20,550 nucleotides of DNA from a virus: IMG/VR virus record IMGVR_UViG_3300021963_000805, positions 1-20,550 of that record; one strand, written 5' to 3'. Made by a program: the position numbers and the translations under genes. Below, piece by piece: positions 1,151 through 11,387 of the stretch. How positions within the stretch are numbered: the stretch's first letter is position 1; each line of letters opens with the position of its first letter. The notes under the pieces are model-generated. The model made no database searches. It was given only the letters and a program-made list of their open reading frames with translations, and was not told the origin of the DNA.

Positions 1151-2590
1151 TTACTTCGACTGAATTGAGACAGAACCACCGGTACCAACTTGTACTGGAT
1201 AGGTTGCGCTGTCTGGGAAACTGAAATATACAACTCTTGTTGCTGGTGTATATGAGCCAGGCTGACTTGGTGTATTACTTGCTAGAGCGCCAGGAGCATA
1301 TACACCTAAAGCACCAGAAACGTTTCCTGCTTGTGCGGCATTATATGTTGCAACAGTTTGTGCATTATAGGTAGCAGGATTATTTGTATTATATGTTGCA
1401 ACATTTTGTGCATTATAGTTCGCAATATTTTGAGCGTTATATGTTGCGGGATTTTGTGTATTATATGTCGCTGGATTGTTTGCGTTATATGTAGCAGGGT
1501 TTTGTGAGTTATAAGATGCTATATTGTTTACGTTATAGTTTGCTGTGTTTACGTTATATGATGCAGGATTCTGTGAGTTATATGATGCTATGTTTTGTGC
1601 ATTATATGATACTACGTTTTGTGCATTATACGATACTACGTTTCTTACGTTATATGATGCTACGTTATTAGCATTATATGATGCAGGATTCTGTGAGTTA
1701 TATGATGCAGGATTCTGTGAGTTATAAGATGCTACGTTTTGTGGATTGAATCCAGAAACGTTTTGTGGATTGAATCCTACAACACCGTAATTAGGATTAT
1801 TTCCGAATCCTACGCATGAATCATAGTTTACTTGATAATATTGAAATCCATAGTTTACTTGATAATAACTAGGACAATTTGGGGCTGTTGCGTTTGATGC
1901 AAAAAAGGATGTATTATATCCCGAATAAAAAGAAAAATTTGTTTGATAAACTTCAAAATGATAATTGTATCCGTTGTATGGATTGAATCCTACAACACCA
2001 TAGTTGGGATTGCTTGAGTTATAGTTCGCATTACTTGCATTATAAGATGCAGGATTCTGTGAGTTATATGATGCTACGTTTTGTGCATTATAAGATGCAA
2101 CGTTCTGTGCGTTGTATGTTGCAGGATTTCCTGCGTTGTATGTTGCTGGGTTGTTTGCGTTGTATGTGGCAGGATTCTGTGAGTTATATGATGCTACGTT
2201 TTGTGAGTTATATGTTGCTACGTTTTGTGCGTTATAGTTAGCAATGTTCTTAGCATTATATGTTGCTGCTGTCTGTGCGTTATATGATGCAGGGTTCTGA
2301 GCATTATAAGATGCAGGATTCTGTGAGTTATATGATGCTATATTGTTTACGTTATAGTTTGCTGTGTTTACGTTATATGATGCAGGATTCTGTGTATTAT
2401 ATGTGGCAACGTTATTTGTGTTATATGTTGCGGCATTACCTACAACGTTTTGTCCACCAGTAGCAGTAACTAGAATATCATACTTACCATAAGGTACGTT
2501 ATAGTTTCCTGGTGCGTTGAAGTTTTGTGTGCCAACTCCAGTCGCTCTCCATGTTTTTTCTAATTCAAAGTTTTTTGCTTTATTACTCAT
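1151..2590 (-). CDS. Tyr-Asn octapeptide-repeat protein, putative adhesin (479 aa)
   Basis: Residues 1-50 contain NFNAPGNYNVPYGKYDILVT followed by ATGG, resembling the start of the glycine-rich domain of phage adhesins (F-x-APG-x-Y-x-VP). The C-terminus (YPVQVGTGGSVSIQSK) resembles the closing strand of that fold. Between them lie two arrays of an octapeptide with consensus A-(S/T)-Y-N-(A/S/T/V)-(Q/N)-N-(P/V/I). Array 1 spans residues 53-191 with 18 Tyr-Asn pairs; array 2 spans 286-417 with 17. Spacing is 8 residues except for one 7 at each NTANYN and one at the end of array 1. Residues 191-286 are a non-repeat aromatic-rich insert flanked by GVVGFNP boxes, with Cys at 239 and 259. The start is ATG at 2590, 16 nt after the fibre stop. 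By analogy with gp38-type distal adhesins it may be the fibre tip protein; that is inference. There is no signal peptide. Confidence 0.85.
   Translation of the reverse strand: MSNKAKNFELEKTWRATGVGTQNFNAPGNYNVPYGKYDILVTATGGQNVVGNAATYNTNNVATYNTQNPASYNVNTANYNVNNIASYNSQNPASYNAQNPASYNAQTAATYNAKNIANYNAQNVATYNSQNVASYNSQNPATYNANNPATYNAGNPATYNAQNVASYNAQNVASYNSQNPASYNASNANYNSSNPNYGVVGFNPYNGYNYHFEVYQTNFSFYSGYNTSFFASNATAPNCPSYYQVNYGFQYYQVNYDSCVGFGNNPNYGVVGFNPQNVSGFNPQNVASYNSQNPASYNSQNPASYNANNVASYNVRNVVSYNAQNVVSYNAQNIASYNSQNPASYNVNTANYNVNNIASYNSQNPATYNANNPATYNTQNPATYNAQNIANYNAQNVATYNTNNPATYNAQTVATYNAAQAGNVSGALGVYAPGALASNTPSQPGSYTPATRVVYFSFPDSATYPVQVGTGGSVSIQSK
1340..1735 (-). repeat. Octapeptide-coding array 2 (24-nt period, 17 units)
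   Basis: This is the DNA encoding residues 286-417 of the same protein, with the same 24-nt period. One 21-nt step occurs at the NTANYN unit. Positions 1515-1575 are identical to 2334-2394 in array 1, which points to copying between arrays. Confidence 0.92.
2018..2434 (-). repeat. Octapeptide-coding array 1 (24-nt period, 18 units)
   Basis: This is the DNA encoding residues 53-191 of the 479-aa protein. Tyr-Asn recurs every 24 nt, with two 21-nt steps. Units are similar but not identical at the DNA level, with variation in the second, fifth, sixth and eighth positions. It contains a 61-nt segment (2334-2394) found again in array 2. Confidence 0.92.
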
Positions 2591-2606: not shown

Positions 2607-5600
2607 TTACGAAGCATTTTTAACGGCGAGAGAAACTATCCAAGTTGTACCAGCATCATACGTCATTACTGACCAAACGTCAACCGCATTTGCTGTTGTT
2701 GTTGCAGGAGGAGAAGTGCCACCAGAATACTTAGATCCTGCTGGCCAAGTGATTGTTCTGCCTCCTGTAGCGTCTTGTTTTGCGATAATTGTAAATGAGA
2801 ACGCACGACCAGAAGGAGCATTTGAGAATGTATATGTTATATTACCTGTGAGGGTATTATAGAACATATTACTTGTTGACAAGTCTAGAGTTGTGGCGCC
2901 TGTTGTTGTGGCATTGTTACTGAGAAATTCAGATGATGCTTTAATAATAGGAGCAATCAAATGATTGTTACCTAGATTTGTATTTGCGCCAAAAACTAAT
3001 CCTGTTGAGTTAATAGTATGTGTTGATCCTACTGTAAACGAAGCAGCATTAATAGTTCCAGTATGATAAGCGCCTGTTGTGTTAGCAATGAATGAAGAAC
3101 CTACAGTATGTGAAGCAGCATTAACTGTGCCGGTATGATAAGCGCCTGTTGTGTTAGCAATGAATGAAGAACCTACAGTATGTGAAGCAGCATTAACTGT
3201 GCCGGTAGATTTGTCAAATGTAAACGATGAGACAGCATTTGCTACACCAGAATCATTGAATACAACTTGAGTGTTTGATCCAGCAACAGGTCCTTGTGAG
3301 CCTGTGTAACCAATATCACCCTTAGAGCCTGTATATCCTAGCGATCCTGTGTAACCAATATTACCCTGATCGCCCTTAGAGCCAGTATATCCTAGTGATC
3401 CAGTGTAACCTACTGACCCATCGTAACCTGTGTTACCTTTGGATCCAGTGTAACCAATATCGCCTTTTGATCCTGTATAACCTACTGAACCATCATAGCC
3501 TGTATCACCTTTGGATCCAGTGTAACCTATATCACCTTTAGATCCAGTATAACCGAATGAACCATCGTAACCAGTATCACCTTTAGATCCTGTATAACCT
3601 ATGTCACCTTTTGATCCGGTGTAACCTACTGACCCATCGTAACCTGTGTTACCTTTGGATCCAGTGTAACCAATATCGCCTTTAGATCCGCTGTAACCGA
3701 ATGAACCATCATAGCCTGTATCACCTTTGGAACCAGTGTACCCGATATCACCTTTAGACCCTGTATAGCCAAATGATCCGTCATAGCCTGTGTCGCCTTT
3801 TGATCCTGTGTATCCGATATCGCCCTTTGATCCAGTATAGCCAAATGATCCGTCATAACCAGTATCACCTTTGGATCCAGTATAACCTATCGACCCATTG
3901 TAACCAGTATCGCCTTTGGATCCTGTGTAACCGATATCACCTTTAGAACCAGTATAACCTAGTGAACCCGTATAACCGATATCTCCTTTGGATCCTGTGT
4001 AGCCTATCGAACCATTGTAACCAGTATCGCCCTTAGAACCGGTGTAACCAGTAATACCTTGTGATCCCGTGTAACCGACAATACCACTAGTTATTGCTAG
4101 AATTATTTTTGTATTGTTGGAAAAACCACTTCCCGCGCCTGCTCCAGCAGAATCAATCAATGTAACGGGAAAGTCCCACCAAGCATCGGCGCCAGAAGTT
4201 TGTCTTGTTCCATCTGCTGTCAATTGCCAAACTTGATAGTCGCCGCTATCAGATATATCTTGAATTGTTATTTGTTGTGTTTCTTTTAACAAATCTAAGA
4301 AAACATCAATGTCAATATTCAATTGATCCAAATGACTTACTGATATTGTGTTGGCGCTTGTTTGTGTAGCATTATTCCAAGAAATATTTCCGTTACCAGG
4401 ATATCCTGATGTTGATGTTGTTGTATTATATTCATAAATTGTTGATGATACACCAGCAATGCCTTGTGAACCATTGTAACCAGTGTCGCCTTTAGAACCA
4501 GTGTAACCGATATCACCCTTTGAACCTGTGTAGCCTATATCGCCTTTAGATCCCGTATATCCGAATGAACCATCATAGCCTGTATTACCTTTTGATCCAT
4601 CGTAGCCTGTATCGCCCTTTGATCCAGTATAGCCAAATGATCCTGTATAGCCTGTATCACCTTTTGATCCATCGTAGCCTGTATCGCCCTTTGATCCAGT
4701 ATAGCCAAATGATCCTGTATAGCCTGAGACACCAAATGATCCATCGTAACCTGTATCGCCTTTGGATCCAGTGTATCCTTTAGAGCCAGTGTATCCGAAT
4801 GATCCATCGTAGCCAGTATCACCCTTAGAGCCTGTGTATCCAATGTCTCCTTGTGACCCATCATAACCAGTATCACCTTTAGACCCTGTGTAACCAATAT
4901 TACCTTTGGATCCGGTGTAGCCGAAAGAACCATCGTAACCAGTATCACCTTTAGAGCCTGTGTATCCTGTATCACCTTTGGATCCTGTATAACCTACTGA
5001 ACCACCGTAACCAGTATCACCTTTAGAACCTGTGTATCCTGTATCGCCCTTGGATCCGGTGTAGCCGAAAGAACCATCGTAACCAGTATCACCTTTAGAC
5101 CCTGTGTATCCTGTATCGCCCTTGGATCCAGTATAACCTATTGATCCTGTATATCCAAAAGAACCATCGTAACCAGTATTACCCTTAGAGCCTGTGTATC
5201 CAATGTCTCCTTGTGAGCCTGTGTATCCAGTGTTGCCTTTAGAGCCATCATATCCCGTATCGCCTTGTGAGCCTGTGTATCCAATGTCTCCTTGTGAGCC
5301 TGTGTATCCAGTGTTGCCTTTAGACCCTGTGTAACCAATATCACCTTTAGATCCAGTATAACCGATATCACCTTGTGAACCTGTGTAACCCGTCTCTCCT
5401 TCTGCCGCTATGAGTGTCCAAAAAGCGTTTTCTGCTGGGGTGTCACCAACATTCCCGCCATTGGAGTTAATACGATACCAAGTTTGTCCTTCATATGTCG
5501 CTATATCGCCGACCGCATATGAACTACCGCCGCTGTAAGCACCAGTAAAATTCCATAGAGCGTCTGCTCCTACTGATCCTGTATAACCGATATCGCCCTT

Positions 5601-7895
5601 TGATCCTGTGTATCCAATTTCGCCCTGTGAGCCTGTGTATCCAGCGTCTCCTTTGGAACCACCGTAACCAGTATCACCTTTAGAACCTGTGTATCCTGTA
5701 TCGCCCTTGGATCCTGTGTAACCAATAACGCCTTGAGTACCTTGAGAACCAGTATAGCCTAGCGATCCTGTATAGCCAGTATCGCCCTTGGATCCGGTGT
5801 ATCCAGCGTCTCCTTTGGAACCATCATATCCTGTATCACCTTGTGAACCAGTATAACCAATGTCTCCTTGTGAGCCACTGTAACCGATACCACCTTGTGA
5901 TCCTGTATAGCCAGCGTTTCCTTTGGAACCTGTGTAACCAGTGTCACCAATATCACCAGTTCTAGCAAATGTTATTGTTGAAAGAGTGGTGTCATCTAAT
6001 GAAGTTCTGCCCGACAACCAAGAAACAGGAACTAGAAAATAATTTCCAGTTTCATAGTGTGCGCCAACAATAGAGAACGTAGCAACACCAGCAGCAGTAT
6101 TTCCTGAAATGCTAAGTGTAAAGTGTCCTTTAATAGCAGAAGTAGAATCGTCAATTGTCGTTAAGAAATTGTAGACGTTTGCTGATTCTGCATCAGAGAA
6201 ATTGATGTATAATGTGTTTGCTGTTGAAAAATTTGTATTGTTAAATGCTAGATGTCCAGCAGTAGGATCCGTGTTTGCTGTTTCATCACTATAGTAATAC
6301 TCAAAACCAGCACCACCGAAAGCACCAGTATCACCTTTTGATCCTGTGTAGCCTAGAGAACCAATAGAACCATCATAACCAGTATTACCTTTGGATCCAG
6401 TATAACCTATATCTCCTTTTGAACCTGTATAACCTATCTCGCCTTGAGAGCCAGTGTAACCAATTACACCTTGAGAACCGCCGTAGCCTAGTGAACCAGT
6501 GTAACCAGTTGCACCAAATGAGCCATCGTAACCTCTTGAGCCTGTGTAACCAGTAGCGCCAAATGAACCGTCGTAGCCTGTGTTACCCTTAGAACCAGTG
6601 TAGCCAATTACACCTTGAGAACCGCCGTAGCCTAGTGAACCAGTGTAACCAATTACACCTTGAGAACCGCCGTAGCCTGTGTCACCCTTAGAACCAGTGT
6701 AGCCAATTACACCTTGAGAACCGCCGTAGCCTAGTGAACCAGTGTAACCAGTTGCACCAAATGAGCCATCGTAACCTCTTGAGCCTGTGTAACCAATGTC
6801 ACCTTTATCACCAGTTCTATTGAATATCGAAAGAACTTCTAGGTCATCTAAAAATGAAGTTTCGCCGTTTAGCCAAGCAACAGGAACATGGAAATGATCT
6901 ACGTCTGCTGTATGTGAACCTGTAATTGAGAAGTATGCATACGATAAATTGTTTGCGTTGTCTTGAAGTTTAAATGATCCTTTGATAGCAGATGTAGAAT
7001 CATCAATTGTTTCTAGATAATTGTAGTTGTTTGCGCCATTTTTATCTGCATACGCAATATACATTATATTTGCACTTGAAAGATTAGCACTATTGAATTT
7101 TAAAGCACCATTAGCAACACTACTATCTGTAGTGTTGGCATCATAATTGTATAAAAATATTGCTCCACCAAATTCGCCTTGTGGTCCTTGTGAGCCAGTA
7201 TAACCGAATGAGCCATTGTAGCCTGTGTCACCTTTAGAACCAGTGTAGCCTAGTGAACCAGTGTAGCCTAGTGAACCAGTGTAGCCAGTTGCACCAAATG
7301 ATCCATCGTAACCTCTTGAGCCTGTGTAACCAGTAGCGCCAAATGAGCCATCGTAACCTCTTGAGCCAGTATAACCAGTAGAGCCGTTATAGCCTACGCC
7401 AATAGAACCAGTGTAACCGACTGAACCAGTATAGCCAACAGAACCGCCATAGCCAAATGAGCCTGTGTAGCCGATGCTGCCAGTATAGCCAGTGGAACCT
7501 TGTGAACCAACAGAACCGCCATAGCCTAGAGAACCAGTATAGCCTACTGATCCGTTGTAACCAGTAGAGCCAGTATAGCCTACTGATCCGTTGTAACCAG
7601 TAGAGCCACTGTAACCCGTGACGGTGCTCCAATAAGTTGATGTTCCGTTACTTGTTAGTGCTTGTCCAGCAGTGCCGACTGAGCCATTTGCAGAGATTGC
7701 TTTGACAGTAAGAGTGTTTGAAACTTTGACATTTGTGTTGTTTGCGCCAATAGCAAAGATTGCCGTACCATTAGAAGAATAAAGAATACCGTCAGTTAAG
7801 TTAAGACCTAACTCTCCTGTATCAATATTGTCTGTTGTTGGAACTTTTCCGGAAACAGAAGTTCTACGAATATAGATATTCGTGTTTGCTGACAT
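2607..7895 (-). CDS. Collagen-like tail fibre protein (1762 aa)
   Basis: The start is ATG at 7895 (MSANTNIYIRR), 7 nt after AGGA; an ATG 36 nt further upstream lacks such a site. Residues 1-90 look like the fibre attachment domain common in marine phages (GELGLNLTDGILYSSNG). About 1,000 residues then form Gly-X-Y collagen-like repeats, dominated by GYT-GSK-GDT/GDI and GYD-GSF, in five blocks separated by globular inserts. Residues about 243-362 and 524-646 are homologous to each other (both contain TIDDSTSAIKG and end in RTGD). About 777-832 resembles a CBM5/12 carbohydrate-binding module (YAVGDIATYEGQTWYR, then GDTP and W). About 1148-1271 is a third insert. From about 1537 to the end is a beta-rich tip ending in a domain with TGNITYTFSNAPSGRAF and ITWPAGSKYSGGT, common at phage fibre ends. 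It probably forms a trimeric receptor-binding fibre. It is first in its operon, behind a late-type promoter. Confidence 0.93.
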   Translation of the reverse strand: MSANTNIYIRRTSVSGKVPTTDNIDTGELGLNLTDGILYSSNGTAIFAIGANNTNVKVSNTLTVKAISANGSVGTAGQALTSNGTSTYWSTVTGYSGSTGYNGSVGYTGSTGYNGSVGYTGSLGYGGSVGSQGSTGYTGSIGYTGSFGYGGSVGYTGSVGYTGSIGVGYNGSTGYTGSRGYDGSFGATGYTGSRGYDGSFGATGYTGSLGYTGSLGYTGSKGDTGYNGSFGYTGSQGPQGEFGGAIFLYNYDANTTDSSVANGALKFNSANLSSANIMYIAYADKNGANNYNYLETIDDSTSAIKGSFKLQDNANNLSYAYFSITGSHTADVDHFHVPVAWLNGETSFLDDLEVLSIFNRTGDKGDIGYTGSRGYDGSFGATGYTGSLGYGGSQGVIGYTGSKGDTGYGGSQGVIGYTGSLGYGGSQGVIGYTGSKGNTGYDGSFGATGYTGSRGYDGSFGATGYTGSLGYGGSQGVIGYTGSQGEIGYTGSKGDIGYTGSKGNTGYDGSIGSLGYTGSKGDTGAFGGAGFEYYYSDETANTDPTAGHLAFNNTNFSTANTLYINFSDAESANVYNFLTTIDDSTSAIKGHFTLSISGNTAAGVATFSIVGAHYETGNYFLVPVSWLSGRTSLDDTTLSTITFARTGDIGDTGYTGSKGNAGYTGSQGGIGYSGSQGDIGYTGSQGDTGYDGSKGDAGYTGSKGDTGYTGSLGYTGSQGTQGVIGYTGSKGDTGYTGSKGDTGYGGSKGDAGYTGSQGEIGYTGSKGDIGYTGSVGADALWNFTGAYSGGSSYAVGDIATYEGQTWYRINSNGGNVGDTPAENAFWTLIAAEGETGYTGSQGDIGYTGSKGDIGYTGSKGNTGYTGSQGDIGYTGSQGDTGYDGSKGNTGYTGSQGDIGYTGSKGNTGYDGSFGYTGSIGYTGSKGDTGYTGSKGDTGYDGSFGYTGSKGDTGYTGSKGDTGYGGSVGYTGSKGDTGYTGSKGDTGYDGSFGYTGSKGNIGYTGSKGDTGYDGSQGDIGYTGSKGDTGYDGSFGYTGSKGYTGSKGDTGYDGSFGVSGYTGSFGYTGSKGDTGYDGSKGDTGYTGSFGYTGSKGDTGYDGSKGNTGYDGSFGYTGSKGDIGYTGSKGDIGYTGSKGDTGYNGSQGIAGVSSTIYEYNTTTSTSGYPGNGNISWNNATQTSANTISVSHLDQLNIDIDVFLDLLKETQQITIQDISDSGDYQVWQLTADGTRQTSGADAWWDFPVTLIDSAGAGAGSGFSNNTKIILAITSGIVGYTGSQGITGYTGSKGDTGYNGSIGYTGSKGDIGYTGSLGYTGSKGDIGYTGSKGDTGYNGSIGYTGSKGDTGYDGSFGYTGSKGDIGYTGSKGDTGYDGSFGYTGSKGDIGYTGSKGDTGYDGSFGYSGSKGDIGYTGSKGNTGYDGSVGYTGSKGDIGYTGSKGDTGYDGSFGYTGSKGDIGYTGSKGDTGYDGSVGYTGSKGDIGYTGSKGNTGYDGSVGYTGSLGYTGSKGDQGNIGYTGSLGYTGSKGDIGYTGSQGPVAGSNTQVVFNDSGVANAVSSFTFDKSTGTVNAASHTVGSSFIANTTGAYHTGTVNAASHTVGSSFIANTTGAYHTGTINAASFTVGSTHTINSTGLVFGANTNLGNNHLIAPIIKASSEFLSNNATTTGATTLDLSTSNMFYNTLTGNITYTFSNAPSGRAFSFTIIAKQDATGGRTITWPAGSKYSGGTSPPATTTANAVDVWSVMTYDAGTTWIVSLAVKNAS
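3061..3204 (-). repeat. Exact tandem duplication, 2 x 72 nt, in fibre tip
   Basis: Positions 3061-3132 and 3133-3204 are identical base for base. Each encodes 24 residues containing NAASHTVGSSFIANTTGAYH. A diverged third unit (INAASFTVGS) follows in the protein. The phase is in frame, so the duplication lengthens the fibre tip without breaking it. Confidence 0.95.
3285..7625 (-). repeat. Gly-X-Y collagen-like coding repeats, interrupted
   Basis: Triplet repeats occupy roughly 7620-7171, 6811-6330, 5960-5580, 5395-4455 and 4084-3290; the gaps encode globular inserts. Codons are mixed between copies, but some long identical stretches exist. Positions 6460-6552 equal 6703-6795 (93 nt), and 4588-4654 equals 4660-4726 (67 nt, period 72). 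Confidence 0.9.
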
Positions 7896-7910
7896 ATGGC
7901 AATCCTTTAT

Positions 7911-7924
7911 TAGATATATATCTA
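7911..7924. repeat. 14-bp palindrome in the fibre mRNA leader
   Basis: TAGATATATATCTA is self-complementary and lies just upstream of the fibre ribosome-binding site (AGGA on the minus strand at 7906-7903). It is AT-only apart from two G:C pairs, so it may be chance; if it folds in RNA it could affect access to the start. Confidence 0.35.
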
Positions 7925-7944
7925 TTGGCAAAACAACATAAATA

Positions 7945-7973
7945 TTGACAGTTATATAACTGTATGTTATTAT
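7945..7973 (+). promoter_or_regulatory. Sigma70-like extended -10 promoter for the glycan operon
   Basis: TTGACA at 7945-7950 is a perfect -35. After a 17-nt spacer, TATTAT at 7968-7973 matches the -10 in 5 of 6 positions, with the extended TG at 7965-7966. The start point would be near 7980, giving a leader of about 38 nt to the ATG at 8018. A near-match to a late octamer (CATAAATA, 7937-7944) on the same strand could be an alternative. Confidence 0.7.
7948..7963. promoter_or_regulatory. Perfect 16-bp palindrome, possible operator
   Basis: ACAGTTATATAACTGT is its own reverse complement. It occupies the spacer of the rightward promoter, overlapping the last three bases of its -35, and lies at the predicted 5' end of the leftward late transcript. 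It could bind a dimeric regulator or fold as a 6-bp hairpin with a 4-nt loop in the late mRNA. Confidence 0.55.
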
Positions 7974-7978
7974 TTATA
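7971..7978 (-). promoter_or_regulatory. T4-type late promoter for the fibre operon
   Basis: The minus strand reads TATAAATA, the exact T4 late-promoter octamer, which is recognised in T4 by gp55/gp33 with the gp45 clamp. Transcription would start near 7964, about 70 nt before the fibre ATG at 7895. It overlaps the -10 of the rightward sigma70-like promoter at 7971-7973. Such an octamer is expected about twice per strand by chance in 20 kb of this composition, but few would fall in a gene-free gap upstream of a start. Confidence 0.65.
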
Positions 7979-8017
7979 AAAAGACGAACTAGTGGTTTGA
8001 GAAAAAATGGAGTTTTA

Positions 8018-10084
8018 ATGAAAATAACTTTTATTGATTGTCTCGGTTTACCTTATGATGGTTCTACTCTTTCCAAAAGAGGGCTTGGCGGTTCTGAATC
8101 CGCTGTAATCTATATCTCTAGAGAACTTGCTAAGATCGGATTTGATGTTACCGTCTATAACGATTGTGACGGAGAAAAAGATTGTTCGCCTGGTATCTAC
8201 GACAATGTAAGATATCGTCCGATCAGAGAAATTGCTAATGAAAACAATTTTGGTATAGTAATTTCATCACGCTCGGTAGCACCTTTTACCCCGTCACATA
8301 TCAATAAAACCTTTAAGAGTTTTGTTACCTTACCGAACTTCGATCATATCGTTCCTAACTCTGTTCATAGAGTCTTGTGGCTACATGATACATTTTGCGA
8401 CGGCGACGATTTGATGGAGGACCTGATCATCCAGAAACGCCTCAATGAAGTATTCGTTCTGTCTGACTTCCATCTAGATTATGTCACGAATTGTCATCAT
8501 GGTAGAAAGAGGATGTTTGAGGTACTTAAAAAGTACATGTTCCTTACCAGAAACGGTATAGGTAGATATGTAGATTTTGTTGATGTAAGAAAAAAGGATC
8601 CAAATCTATTTGTCTATAACTCCTCTGTTACTAAGGGAATGATGCCTCTAATTGACAAGGTTTGGCCAAGAGTACAAGAGGCGATCCCTGAAGCCCGGCT
8701 GAAGATCATCGGCGGATACTATAAGTTCAAAGATCAGGATGGACCTGACGCTCAACAGAAGCGATACTATGAACTTATTGAGTACAGCAAAAGTATGGGA
8801 CTCAATATTGAATTTACTGGTATCATTAAGCAAGATCAAGTCGCTGCTATTATGGCAGAATCGTCGTACATGATTTATCCAGCAGCATATCCAGAGACTT
8901 ACGGTATCTCTTGTATAGAAGCATTAGCACATAACACTCCATTGATTACCTGTGATTTTGGTGCGCTAGAAGAAACAGCGATTGATTCTGCCTGTTACAA
9001 GATTCCATATCCTATCGAACCAAACAGTTTATTTCCTCATATCAATAATGAATATCAAGTAAATGCTTTCGTTGATATGGCAATTCGCGCACACAAAGAC
9101 AAATATCTTCATCAACAAAAAATGTATGCTTGCAATCAACTAAAAGATATCGTCGGTTGGGATTCTGTAGCACTTCAATGGAAACAACATCTATTCTACA
9201 AACTAGGAGAATATCTACCTGTTGACGAATATCATAAAGTTTCTAGAATCAATCACAAAGTCAGAAAGGCTTTTGGTCGTAGATTCATGAATCCAGAGGA
9301 ACTTCAAGACCCCAGAACAGAAGAAAAACAGATCACAGTTATAACTCCTGTGTATAATTCTGAAAAATATATTCAGAAATGTATTTTTTCTGTTGCATCT
9401 CAGGATTATTTGATGTATAATATGGTTGTTGTGAATGATAATAGTACAGATAGAACTCTTGAAGTTATCAAAGAAACTCTAGAACAGTTACCCGAAAAGA
9501 TCAGAAAAAAGTTCACTGTTGTAAACAACACGGAAAATATGGGTGCTGTCTACAATCAAATTACCAATATTAGAAAGTATAACGATGACAGAATCATCAT
9601 GCTATTGGATGGTGATGACTCTCTTGTAAATGATCCAAACATTTTCCACAAGTACAATAATTTATATCATGATGGTGCTGAATTTACTTATGGTTCATGT
9701 TGGTCAATGATTGACAATATTCCTTTGATTGCTCAAGAATATCCACCATTTATTAAAGAAATGAGACTGTATAAAGATTACAAGTTTAATTGGAACATGC
9801 CTTATACTCATCTAAGAACATTCTCTAGAAGACTCTTAGATAACATTCCTGATTATGAATTTAAGAGTTTAACAGGATCGTGGTATAAAGCAGGTGGAGA
9901 TAATGCTGTGTTCTATTCTATTCTACTCAAAGCAGATCCATCAAAGGTTGTTTGTGTGCCAGAAGTCGTATATAATTATAACGACATGAATCCTCTGAAT
10001 GACTTTAAGGTTAACTCAAACGAACAAACAAAAAACTCTAAAGAAATTTGTGGTGAAACCAAGACTATTGATATGGAGATATAA
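8018..10084 (+). CDS. Two-domain glycosyltransferase, GT4-like plus GT2-like (688 aa)
   Basis: ATG at 8018 follows GGAG by 5 nt. The frame is open back to 7964, but that would start inside the promoter. Residues 1 to about 420 are a GT-B fold of GT4 type: a GLGGSE donor loop near residue 25, a LKIIGGYY strand, and the catalytic-region E-x7-E motif at Glu293/Glu301 (PETYGISCIEAL). Residues about 437-688 are a GT-A fold of GT2 type: ITVITPVYNSEKYI, NDNSTDRT, and a DGDD metal/nucleotide-sugar motif at 531-534. Both catalytic motif sets look intact, so the enzyme may add two sugars in turn. It is cytoplasmic, with no membrane helix. The stop overlaps the next start by 1 nt (TAATG). The first half is clearly richer in GC than the second, suggesting a fusion of two sources. 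Confidence 0.92.
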   Translation: MKITFIDCLGLPYDGSTLSKRGLGGSESAVIYISRELAKIGFDVTVYNDCDGEKDCSPGIYDNVRYRPIREIANENNFGIVISSRSVAPFTPSHINKTFKSFVTLPNFDHIVPNSVHRVLWLHDTFCDGDDLMEDLIIQKRLNEVFVLSDFHLDYVTNCHHGRKRMFEVLKKYMFLTRNGIGRYVDFVDVRKKDPNLFVYNSSVTKGMMPLIDKVWPRVQEAIPEARLKIIGGYYKFKDQDGPDAQQKRYYELIEYSKSMGLNIEFTGIIKQDQVAAIMAESSYMIYPAAYPETYGISCIEALAHNTPLITCDFGALEETAIDSACYKIPYPIEPNSLFPHINNEYQVNAFVDMAIRAHKDKYLHQQKMYACNQLKDIVGWDSVALQWKQHLFYKLGEYLPVDEYHKVSRINHKVRKAFGRRFMNPEELQDPRTEEKQITVITPVYNSEKYIQKCIFSVASQDYLMYNMVVVNDNSTDRTLEVIKETLEQLPEKIRKKFTVVNNTENMGAVYNQITNIRKYNDDRIIMLLDGDDSLVNDPNIFHKYNNLYHDGAEFTYGSCWSMIDNIPLIAQEYPPFIKEMRLYKDYKFNWNMPYTHLRTFSRRLLDNIPDYEFKSLTGSWYKAGGDNAVFYSILLKADPSKVVCVPEVVYNYNDMNPLNDFKVNSNEQTKNSKEICGETKTIDMEI

Positions 10085-10665
10085 TGAAAAGCATTTTAAT
10101 AGCAATTCCTACTGCTAACGATATTCAGCCCGATACATTCAAGTCAATCTACGATCAGATTGTACCTGATGGATATAGAACTCAATTTCAATACTTCTAT
10201 GGTTATCGTGTAGATCAAGTTCGCAATCTAATTGCAGACTGGACAGTTAAAGGTTTTGATTACCTGTTTGCTGTCGATCACGATATGACTTTTCCACCAG
10301 ATACACTAGCAAGACTTTTAGCAGCAGACAAGCCGGCAATCTCTGCGGTATATCGTCAACGAAATGAAAATCAAGTATTAGAAGTACATGATTTCTCTTT
10401 CAGAAATATTCCTTGGGAAAATCTAAAAGGTAAGGGTGTAGTAGAAGTTGGATCGTTTGGTTTCGGTTGCGTTCTAATTAAGAAGCAAGTTTTTGTTGAT
10501 ATTGGATATCCACAATTCTATTATCATCATGCTCTAGATCACAAAGACACCTTTAGCGAAGATTTAGACTTCTGTAGAAAAGCAAGAGATAAGGGACATT
10601 CTCTCTGGGTCGATACATCTATAACATGTGGACATATCGGTAAAAGGACATTTACAGTATCATGA
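10084..10665 (+). CDS. GT-A fold glycosyltransferase, small (193 aa)
   Basis: The protein starts with a beta strand (MKSILIAIPTAND). A DxD-type motif, Asp65-His-Asp67 in FAVDHDMTFPPD, would bind the nucleotide-sugar and metal. SEDLDFCRKARDKGHSLWVD (from about 158) matches the late acidic region of GT-A enzymes, where an ED pair precedes the catalytic area, and His184 (CGHIG) could be the C-terminal metal ligand. The length is short but typical of phage and capsule GT-A enzymes of this type. GGAG, 5 nt before the ATG, lies inside the end of the previous gene, so translation is probably coupled. The sugar and acceptor are unknown. It works in the cytoplasm with the preceding fused transferase. 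Confidence 0.88.
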   Translation: MKSILIAIPTANDIQPDTFKSIYDQIVPDGYRTQFQYFYGYRVDQVRNLIADWTVKGFDYLFAVDHDMTFPPDTLARLLAADKPAISAVYRQRNENQVLEVHDFSFRNIPWENLKGKGVVEVGSFGFGCVLIKKQVFVDIGYPQFYYHHALDHKDTFSEDLDFCRKARDKGHSLWVDTSITCGHIGKRTFTVS

Positions 10666-11387
10666 CATACACATTTGAAACATACTCAAAAGATTATGCA
10701 AGAAAAGAATTTGCTTTGCACGGAGAAGATTGGATTCTTCAACATCTGCAAGGTAAACTAAACACCATTCTAGATGTTGGTTCTAATATTGGGGAATGGA
10801 CTCGCATGGCAAGAGAGTTCCATCCTGATGCCGAGATTCATACATTTGAAGTTGTATATGAAACTTATAAGAAACTTCTTAATAACATTCCATTAGACTC
10901 TAAGATCATTCCTAATGGATTTGGTCTTTCGGATTCATGTGGAACATTACGAATGAAATGGCGGAAAGATCATGACGCTGTAAGCACACATCTCGCTAAA
11001 CTAGCAGTAGAGAACTTTGAGTGGCGCGAAGGTATTATCTTCACAGGTGATCAATACATCAAGAGCAGATCACTTGGTTATGTTGATTTTCTAAAGATAG
11101 ATGTTGAGGGCGCTGAAGGTATGGTTCTAGACGGCTTTATTGATTCACTGACAGAAAAAAAGATAGGTATTATTCAGTTTGAATATGGTCTTGCTGCTAT
11201 TCTAAGCAGATTTCTTTTAGTGGATGCATACGAACTATTAACACCACTAGGATATAATCTTGGTAGATTACATTCTGGTCGAGTTGAATTTAAAGGATAT
11301 AGTTTATTAGATGAGACTTTTAGTATGAACACCAACAGTCAAGACTATGTTGCTGTACATCAATCTAAGATGCATCTATTCTCTTAG
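10662..11387 (+). CDS. FkbM-family SAM-dependent methyltransferase (241 aa)
   Basis: Residues 36-44 (ILDVGSNIG) form the SAM-binding motif I, and the acidic Glu63 in HTFEVV ends the next strand as expected for ribose binding. DFLKIDVEGAE at 142-152 is the hallmark FkbM motif, followed by IIQFEYG. Family members O-methylate sugars or small molecules, so here it probably caps or modifies the sugar added by the two transferases upstream. The start overlaps the previous stop in ATGA, indicating coupled translation. Its stop (TAG, 11385-11387) overlaps the stop of the opposing minus-strand gene, leaving no gap for a terminator. The whole core domain is present. Confidence 0.92.
   Translation: MTYTFETYSKDYARKEFALHGEDWILQHLQGKLNTILDVGSNIGEWTRMAREFHPDAEIHTFEVVYETYKKLLNNIPLDSKIIPNGFGLSDSCGTLRMKWRKDHDAVSTHLAKLAVENFEWREGIIFTGDQYIKSRSLGYVDFLKIDVEGAEGMVLDGFIDSLTEKKIGIIQFEYGLAAILSRFLLVDAYELLTPLGYNLGRLHSGRVEFKGYSLLDETFSMNTNSQDYVAVHQSKMHLFS

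Follow-up and report, generated by a model that had tools for sequence, protein, structure and literature searches.

A putative phage fibre-tip adhesin family with length-matched repeat arms around an exchangeable centre

A virus contig of 20.5 kb (20,550 nucleotides; the whole stretch is called the window here) carries tail and virion genes and, among them, a gene for a repeat protein which on sequence grounds belongs to an undescribed family of putative phage surface proteins. Members share conserved ends, display two repeat arms of equal length around a non-repeat centre, and in nearly all loci are encoded directly behind a tail fibre gene. In one subfamily the arms show a mirrored register. 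These features make it likely that the protein is a fibre-tip adhesin with a base on the fibre, arms zipped out and back, and an exchangeable distal tip.

In the proposed arrangement the N- and C-terminal ends would combine into one base, docked on the terminus of the fibre whose gene lies immediately upstream. From this base the chain would extend as arm 1, reach the distal non-repeat tip and come back antiparallel as arm 2, with the tip domain contacting the host receptor. The arms would pair unit by unit, so that the number of repeats determines how far out the tip stands and any insertion in one arm needs a counterpart at equal height in its partner. The tip is a cassette that is swapped by recombination between phages, which would alter specificity.

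The window protein, its family and its neighbours

The open reading frame has an ATG at 2590, a stop at 1151–1153 on the minus strand and a 479 aa product, which bears out the coordinates, strand and frame given in a preliminary description of this DNA (Table 1). The 35 Tyr-Asn octapeptides of that description are present as 35 Tyr-Asn-initial units, although the 8-residue spacing is regular rather than strict: 32 units are octamers and three are heptamers (starting at residues 72, 183 and 345), all other spacing being 8 residues. Array 1 has 18 units (residues 56–190) and array 2 has 17 (residues 289–416), and these two uninterrupted runs of 17–18 units exclude chance. Tandem Repeats Finder shows that the repeats are real at the DNA level too, with a period of 24. 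The two arrays are equally long and flank the non-repeat central domain, which holds both cysteines of the protein. Composition is extreme: of the 479 residues, 106 are Asn, 56 are Tyr and one is His. An open reading frame at 403–1233 on the minus strand, for which a TTG start had been listed, runs into the adhesin gene and is without a family match; an internal ATG (MIIEANPLIF) right after the adhesin stop is its likelier start.

Table 1. Features of the repeat protein gene and the adjoining fibre gene in the window
Feature	Position	Strand	Evidence
Collagen-like fibre protein, 1774 aa, upstream of the adhesin	2607..7931	-	Pfam Collagen, E 4.6e-133
Two-arm repeat protein gene	1151..2590	-	Open reading frame and array count; relatives with the same ends
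Base domain, N-terminal half (residues 1-54), KTWRATGVGTQNFNAPGNYNVPYGKYDILVTATGG	2429..2590	-	Conserved in all members; modelled beta-strands, best block pLDDT 88
Arm 1 (outgoing), Tyr-Asn octapeptides, residues 55-203	1982..2428	-	Array count and arm measurements
Non-repeat centre (residues 204-266), proposed distal receptor-binding tip	1793..1981	-	Arm measurement, tip comparison
184-bp patch with 41/42 differences from the near-identical contig L002	1766..1949	-	Window/L002 comparison
Arm 2 (returning), Tyr-Asn octapeptides, residues 267-419	1334..1792	-	Array count and arm measurements
Base domain, C-terminal half (residues 420-479), ending YPVQVGTGGSVSIQSK	1154..1333	-	AlphaFold; subfamily profile match E 3.7e-20

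Relatives were gathered from IMG/VR with the window protein and then with growing alignments, yielding about 130 loci with 61 distinct sequences, all in uncultured phages. Every member opens with K-T/S-W ... FNAPG...YG, and the closing strands (...YPDNATYPVTV..GG...) are missing only from L079 and from incomplete copies. Two non-overlapping subfamily alignments match over the closing domain in a profile comparison (E 3.7e-20). The core between the ends is highly variable, consisting of the Tyr-Asn octamers of the window protein, PGNLNYNPLV decamers, NGPQNFNAPT decamers, 14-mers, 19-mers, or units of 22, 23 and 27 residues. The aromatic residue of the repeat pair is Tyr in the window protein and mostly Phe in one subfamily. 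Members carry exactly two cysteines or none, except L079 and L004.

Searches of Pfam, PHROGs and NCBIfam gave no family match above the curated cut-off save on L004, L079 and L043. The first two are inserted domains: a DUF4214 in the L004 tip and an AXH/Hint-like end in L079 (4001–6217), where an AXH/Hint/intein-like module, preceded by GGGGGSCC, takes the place of the closing end at residues ~590–739. The third, PF09077 (MuB_C) with 41.3 bits on L043, was judged a repeat artefact, as no single stretch passes. Low-complexity filtering reduces the sensitivity of whole-protein searches and the ends were therefore also searched alone. At the sensitivity used, no relative was found in 50,697 records of cultured phages, where the weak matches are low-complexity, nor in bacterial genomes, and the PDB sequence search gave no match. 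L005 and L006 were dropped as low-complexity false matches. As far as the libraries and literature searched go (subscription papers and preprints lay outside), the family, its non-glycine repeat arms and its length-matched pairing are undescribed; phage tip adhesins with a conserved frame and a variable tip are already known.

The adjoining 1774 aa fibre protein consists of 18 Pfam Collagen stretches with non-collagen domains between them, and its last ~110 aa form a C-terminal domain that adjoins the adhesin gene. In nearly all family loci this domain precedes the first adhesin gene by 3–20 bp, a position that suggests docking of the adhesin on the fibre. In several loci one fibre gene is followed by two tandem adhesin genes that differ in arms and tips (L055, L057, L058, L046–L049, L051, L054, L059). 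The same ~110 aa domain also terminates tail-fibre genes of cultured phages; there the next gene encodes a different protein, which is glycine-rich in Microcystis phage Mel-JY34.

Two other groups of genes are found nearby. A 2OG-Fe(II) oxygenase (PF13640, E 1.8e-18; L002 positions 8847–9443, outside the window) is found downstream of the adhesin in 43/43 loci with enough sequence; it is the next gene in most members, and two genes intervene in the lineage of the window. It might act on the arrays, hydroxylating Pro or Asn, or on the collagen-like fibre. Glycosyltransferases and an FkbM-type methyltransferase lie amid the tail genes on the opposite strand (window 7964–11387, plus strand) and possibly modify virion or host glycans.

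Equal arms and mirrored register

The centre was located as the longest interior stretch without self-similarity, a detector that is blind to position; when centres were relocated to random places, it recovered them with a median error of 0.002. In 51 complete proteins with arms from 31 to 335 residues long, the centre falls at the middle of the repeat region (left arm fraction 0.502±0.011, r=0.993), and 25 clusters at 80% end identity give 0.4985±0.0105. Changes in the two arms co-vary (r=0.972 in 25 independent closest pairs), and all 15 pairs with an arm change above 8 aa changed in the same direction on both arms. The near-identical pair L072 and L086 differs by one 19-residue unit per arm, situated 106–125 and 107–126 residues from the base. 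The window type also has equal arms, with 19/19 aromatic-Asn units when measured on the 98%-identical form of L002. Within the Phe-Asn subfamily it is the unit count that agrees between the arms (slope 0.995±0.052), not the residue count (0.899±0.019), which favours one unit per rung.

The YPxANQP subfamily permits a finer comparison. Each unit has two parts: the N segment measures 12 residues, rising to 16 when TNYN is added, and the P segment 6, rising to 11 when xANQP/EAARP is added. Starting at the base, both arms were read so that N lies opposite P, as antiparallel chains require, and members with unreadable segments were left out. Long lies opposite long and short opposite short in 249/250 half-unit pairs, a pooled count that overstates the number of independent tests since close relatives are not independent. 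For example, left units of 27,27,23,22,22,23,23,22,22,27,23,23,23 residues lie opposite right units of 27,27,22,23,23,22,22,23,23,27,22,22,22. Several distinct length patterns occur among the members and the rule holds in all. When the register is shifted by 1–4 segments, or arm 2 is read in direct order, matches mostly fall to about a third to two thirds. A mirror test by Tyr/Phe-Asn spacing alone is uninformative, as some units hold two such pairs. The units of the window protein are too uniform to reveal a mirrored code, and its three 7-residue units are not opposite one another.

Equal arms might also arise if one array had been duplicated from the other, and some unit strings are in fact common to both arms, e.g. 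ASYNVNTANYNVNNIASYN in the window protein. However duplication yields direct order, and direct order matches only 5/13 to 15/25 where mirror order scores 13/13 to 25/25. Arms of unlike repeat type are also still matched in length (L118, L130, L011). An origin of equality by duplication is thus extremely unlikely. Since DNA duplication gives direct order and inversion cannot reverse a peptide, the mirror order is explained only by selection on pairing.

The mirrored arms imply a chain that leaves and returns along itself, each rung zipped to its partner, and a centre placed at the distal tip. A stronger proposal, to which we give an even chance, is a peptide zipper in which each segment, long or short, dictates an opposite of its own length class. 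The fold would be a two-strand solenoid or ladder absent from the PDB, with length and tip varying independently. On the main reading, sequence by itself reveals the topology and the rung-by-rung pairing of this adhesin family.

Structure models

An AlphaFold model of the whole window protein, built on a 9-sequence alignment, shows residues 20–44 and 420–479 as β-strands with moderate to good confidence. The mutual packing of both ends in this model depends on that shallow alignment. Arms and centre are not resolved (pLDDT about 20). The model of the relative L119 shows one short strand per 10-residue unit, with a pLDDT of 71–84 in the right arm; the left arm is similar at low confidence and the base is weak. 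One short strand per unit is thus the probable shape of a rung. Foldseek searches of the PDB with both models gave no significant match. Weak structural matches are mostly to beta-helix proteins, and others are to phage proteins named 'glycine-rich domain-containing'. A BFVD match, A0A516KZD8 (E 1.7e-6), was unusable (rmsd 52, unnamed).

The preliminary description had read the octapeptides as a stacked solenoid with a Tyr/Asn ladder; in a single continuous beta-solenoid stacked from N to C, the centre would be an insertion loop. Stacked strands within the arms are suggested by the L119 model, and the weak matches to beta-helix proteins point in the same direction, but these have probabilities of just 0.01–0.03. 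Furthermore a single column does not force an insertion at the exact middle, arms of equal length, or mirrored segment lengths. The single solenoid is therefore considered quite unlikely, and the topology is read instead as a hairpin that goes out to a tip and returns.

The low pLDDT across the arrays would agree with a spacer or decoy of low complexity, disordered and without a defined fold. Such a reading is nevertheless very unlikely, because mirror register and coordinated insertions and deletions require contact between the arms. For the hairpin, the matched arms supply a strong and falsifiable constraint on structure prediction.

Tip exchange and comparison with known systems

The window and the 99.5%-identical contig L002 differ at 42 positions over 8590 bp, and 41 of these lie within 184 bp of the tip. 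Twenty-nine codons are changed in this patch, with 10 amino-acid changes and 19/29 synonymous. Because many of the tip changes are synonymous, import of a divergent allele by recombination is indicated. A diversity-generating retroelement was ruled out as the source, as the changes affect all bases and 19 of the 29 changed codons are synonymous. Elsewhere in the family some pairs have arms 92–98% identical and tips only 20–30% identical; conversely, tips up to 75% identical are found on frames only 54% identical. Judged from these comparisons, tips are exchanged between phages. Matched arms can locate the putative host-specificity cassette in genomes without a cultured host.

The protein could instead assist assembly, as a fibre chaperone or in some other role, without being part of the virion: T4 gp38, whose gene occupies the same position, is a chaperone that mature virions lack (PMC9608196). 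Host recognition is the better fit to exchangeable tips and to a polymorphic patch limited to the tip, and in Mel-JY34 the slot is occupied by a glycine-rich protein. The assembly-factor reading is considered unlikely, and receptor binding by the tip remains the probable function.

The gp38 adhesins of S16, T2 and PP01 likewise have a gene of their own immediately after that of the distal fibre and combine a conserved frame with exchangeable receptor-binding segments. The preliminary description had likened the ends of the window protein to those of glycine-rich adhesins. One conserved family-wide frame, modelled beta-strands and a gene directly behind the fibre gene agree with this, but homology to gp38-type adhesins is not supported: hhalign against S16 gp38 gave E 0.15 and 0.26, not significant, the former alignment covering the opening strand and its GRGGTGG. 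The family also differs from gp38, a polyglycine II sandwich, in its long repeat arms and in the lack of polyglycine motifs: the L002 form, which is 98% identical to the window protein, contains 5.6% G and no G run longer than 2. Homology to T4 gp37, whose distal needle (D10/D11, PDB 2XGF) is a trimer with iron-binding histidines, was not found either (hhalign E 0.26 over 12 columns).

In Pam3 gp24, loops extend from a beta-domain in the direction of the fibre axis, and a conserved stem carries a variable distal tip (PMC9608196). It differs in having a 39% glycine lattice and six loops inside the fibre protein, whereas the window family would have one out-and-back loop without polyglycine. The T4 gp37 needle has a base (811–881 and 1010–1026), a stem of 50+50 residues (882–931 and 960–1009) and a tip (932–959) that binds receptors (PMC6957217). 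The split base, two equal antiparallel stems and tip between them are shared with the family, where the topology is deduced from sequence, and in both the specificity segment is exchanged between phages (PMC6957217, PMC9659904). The T4 needle, however, ends the fibre protein itself and has 50-residue stems and His-bound irons, while the family is encoded by a separate gene and has arms of 31–335 residues of N/Y/P repeats, with one His in the window protein. On the best reading the family works like the T4 gp37 needle and is a member of neither gp37 nor gp38. It would represent a second way, distinct from the polyglycine lattice and from the T4 needle, of mounting an exchangeable receptor-binding tip on a fibre end.
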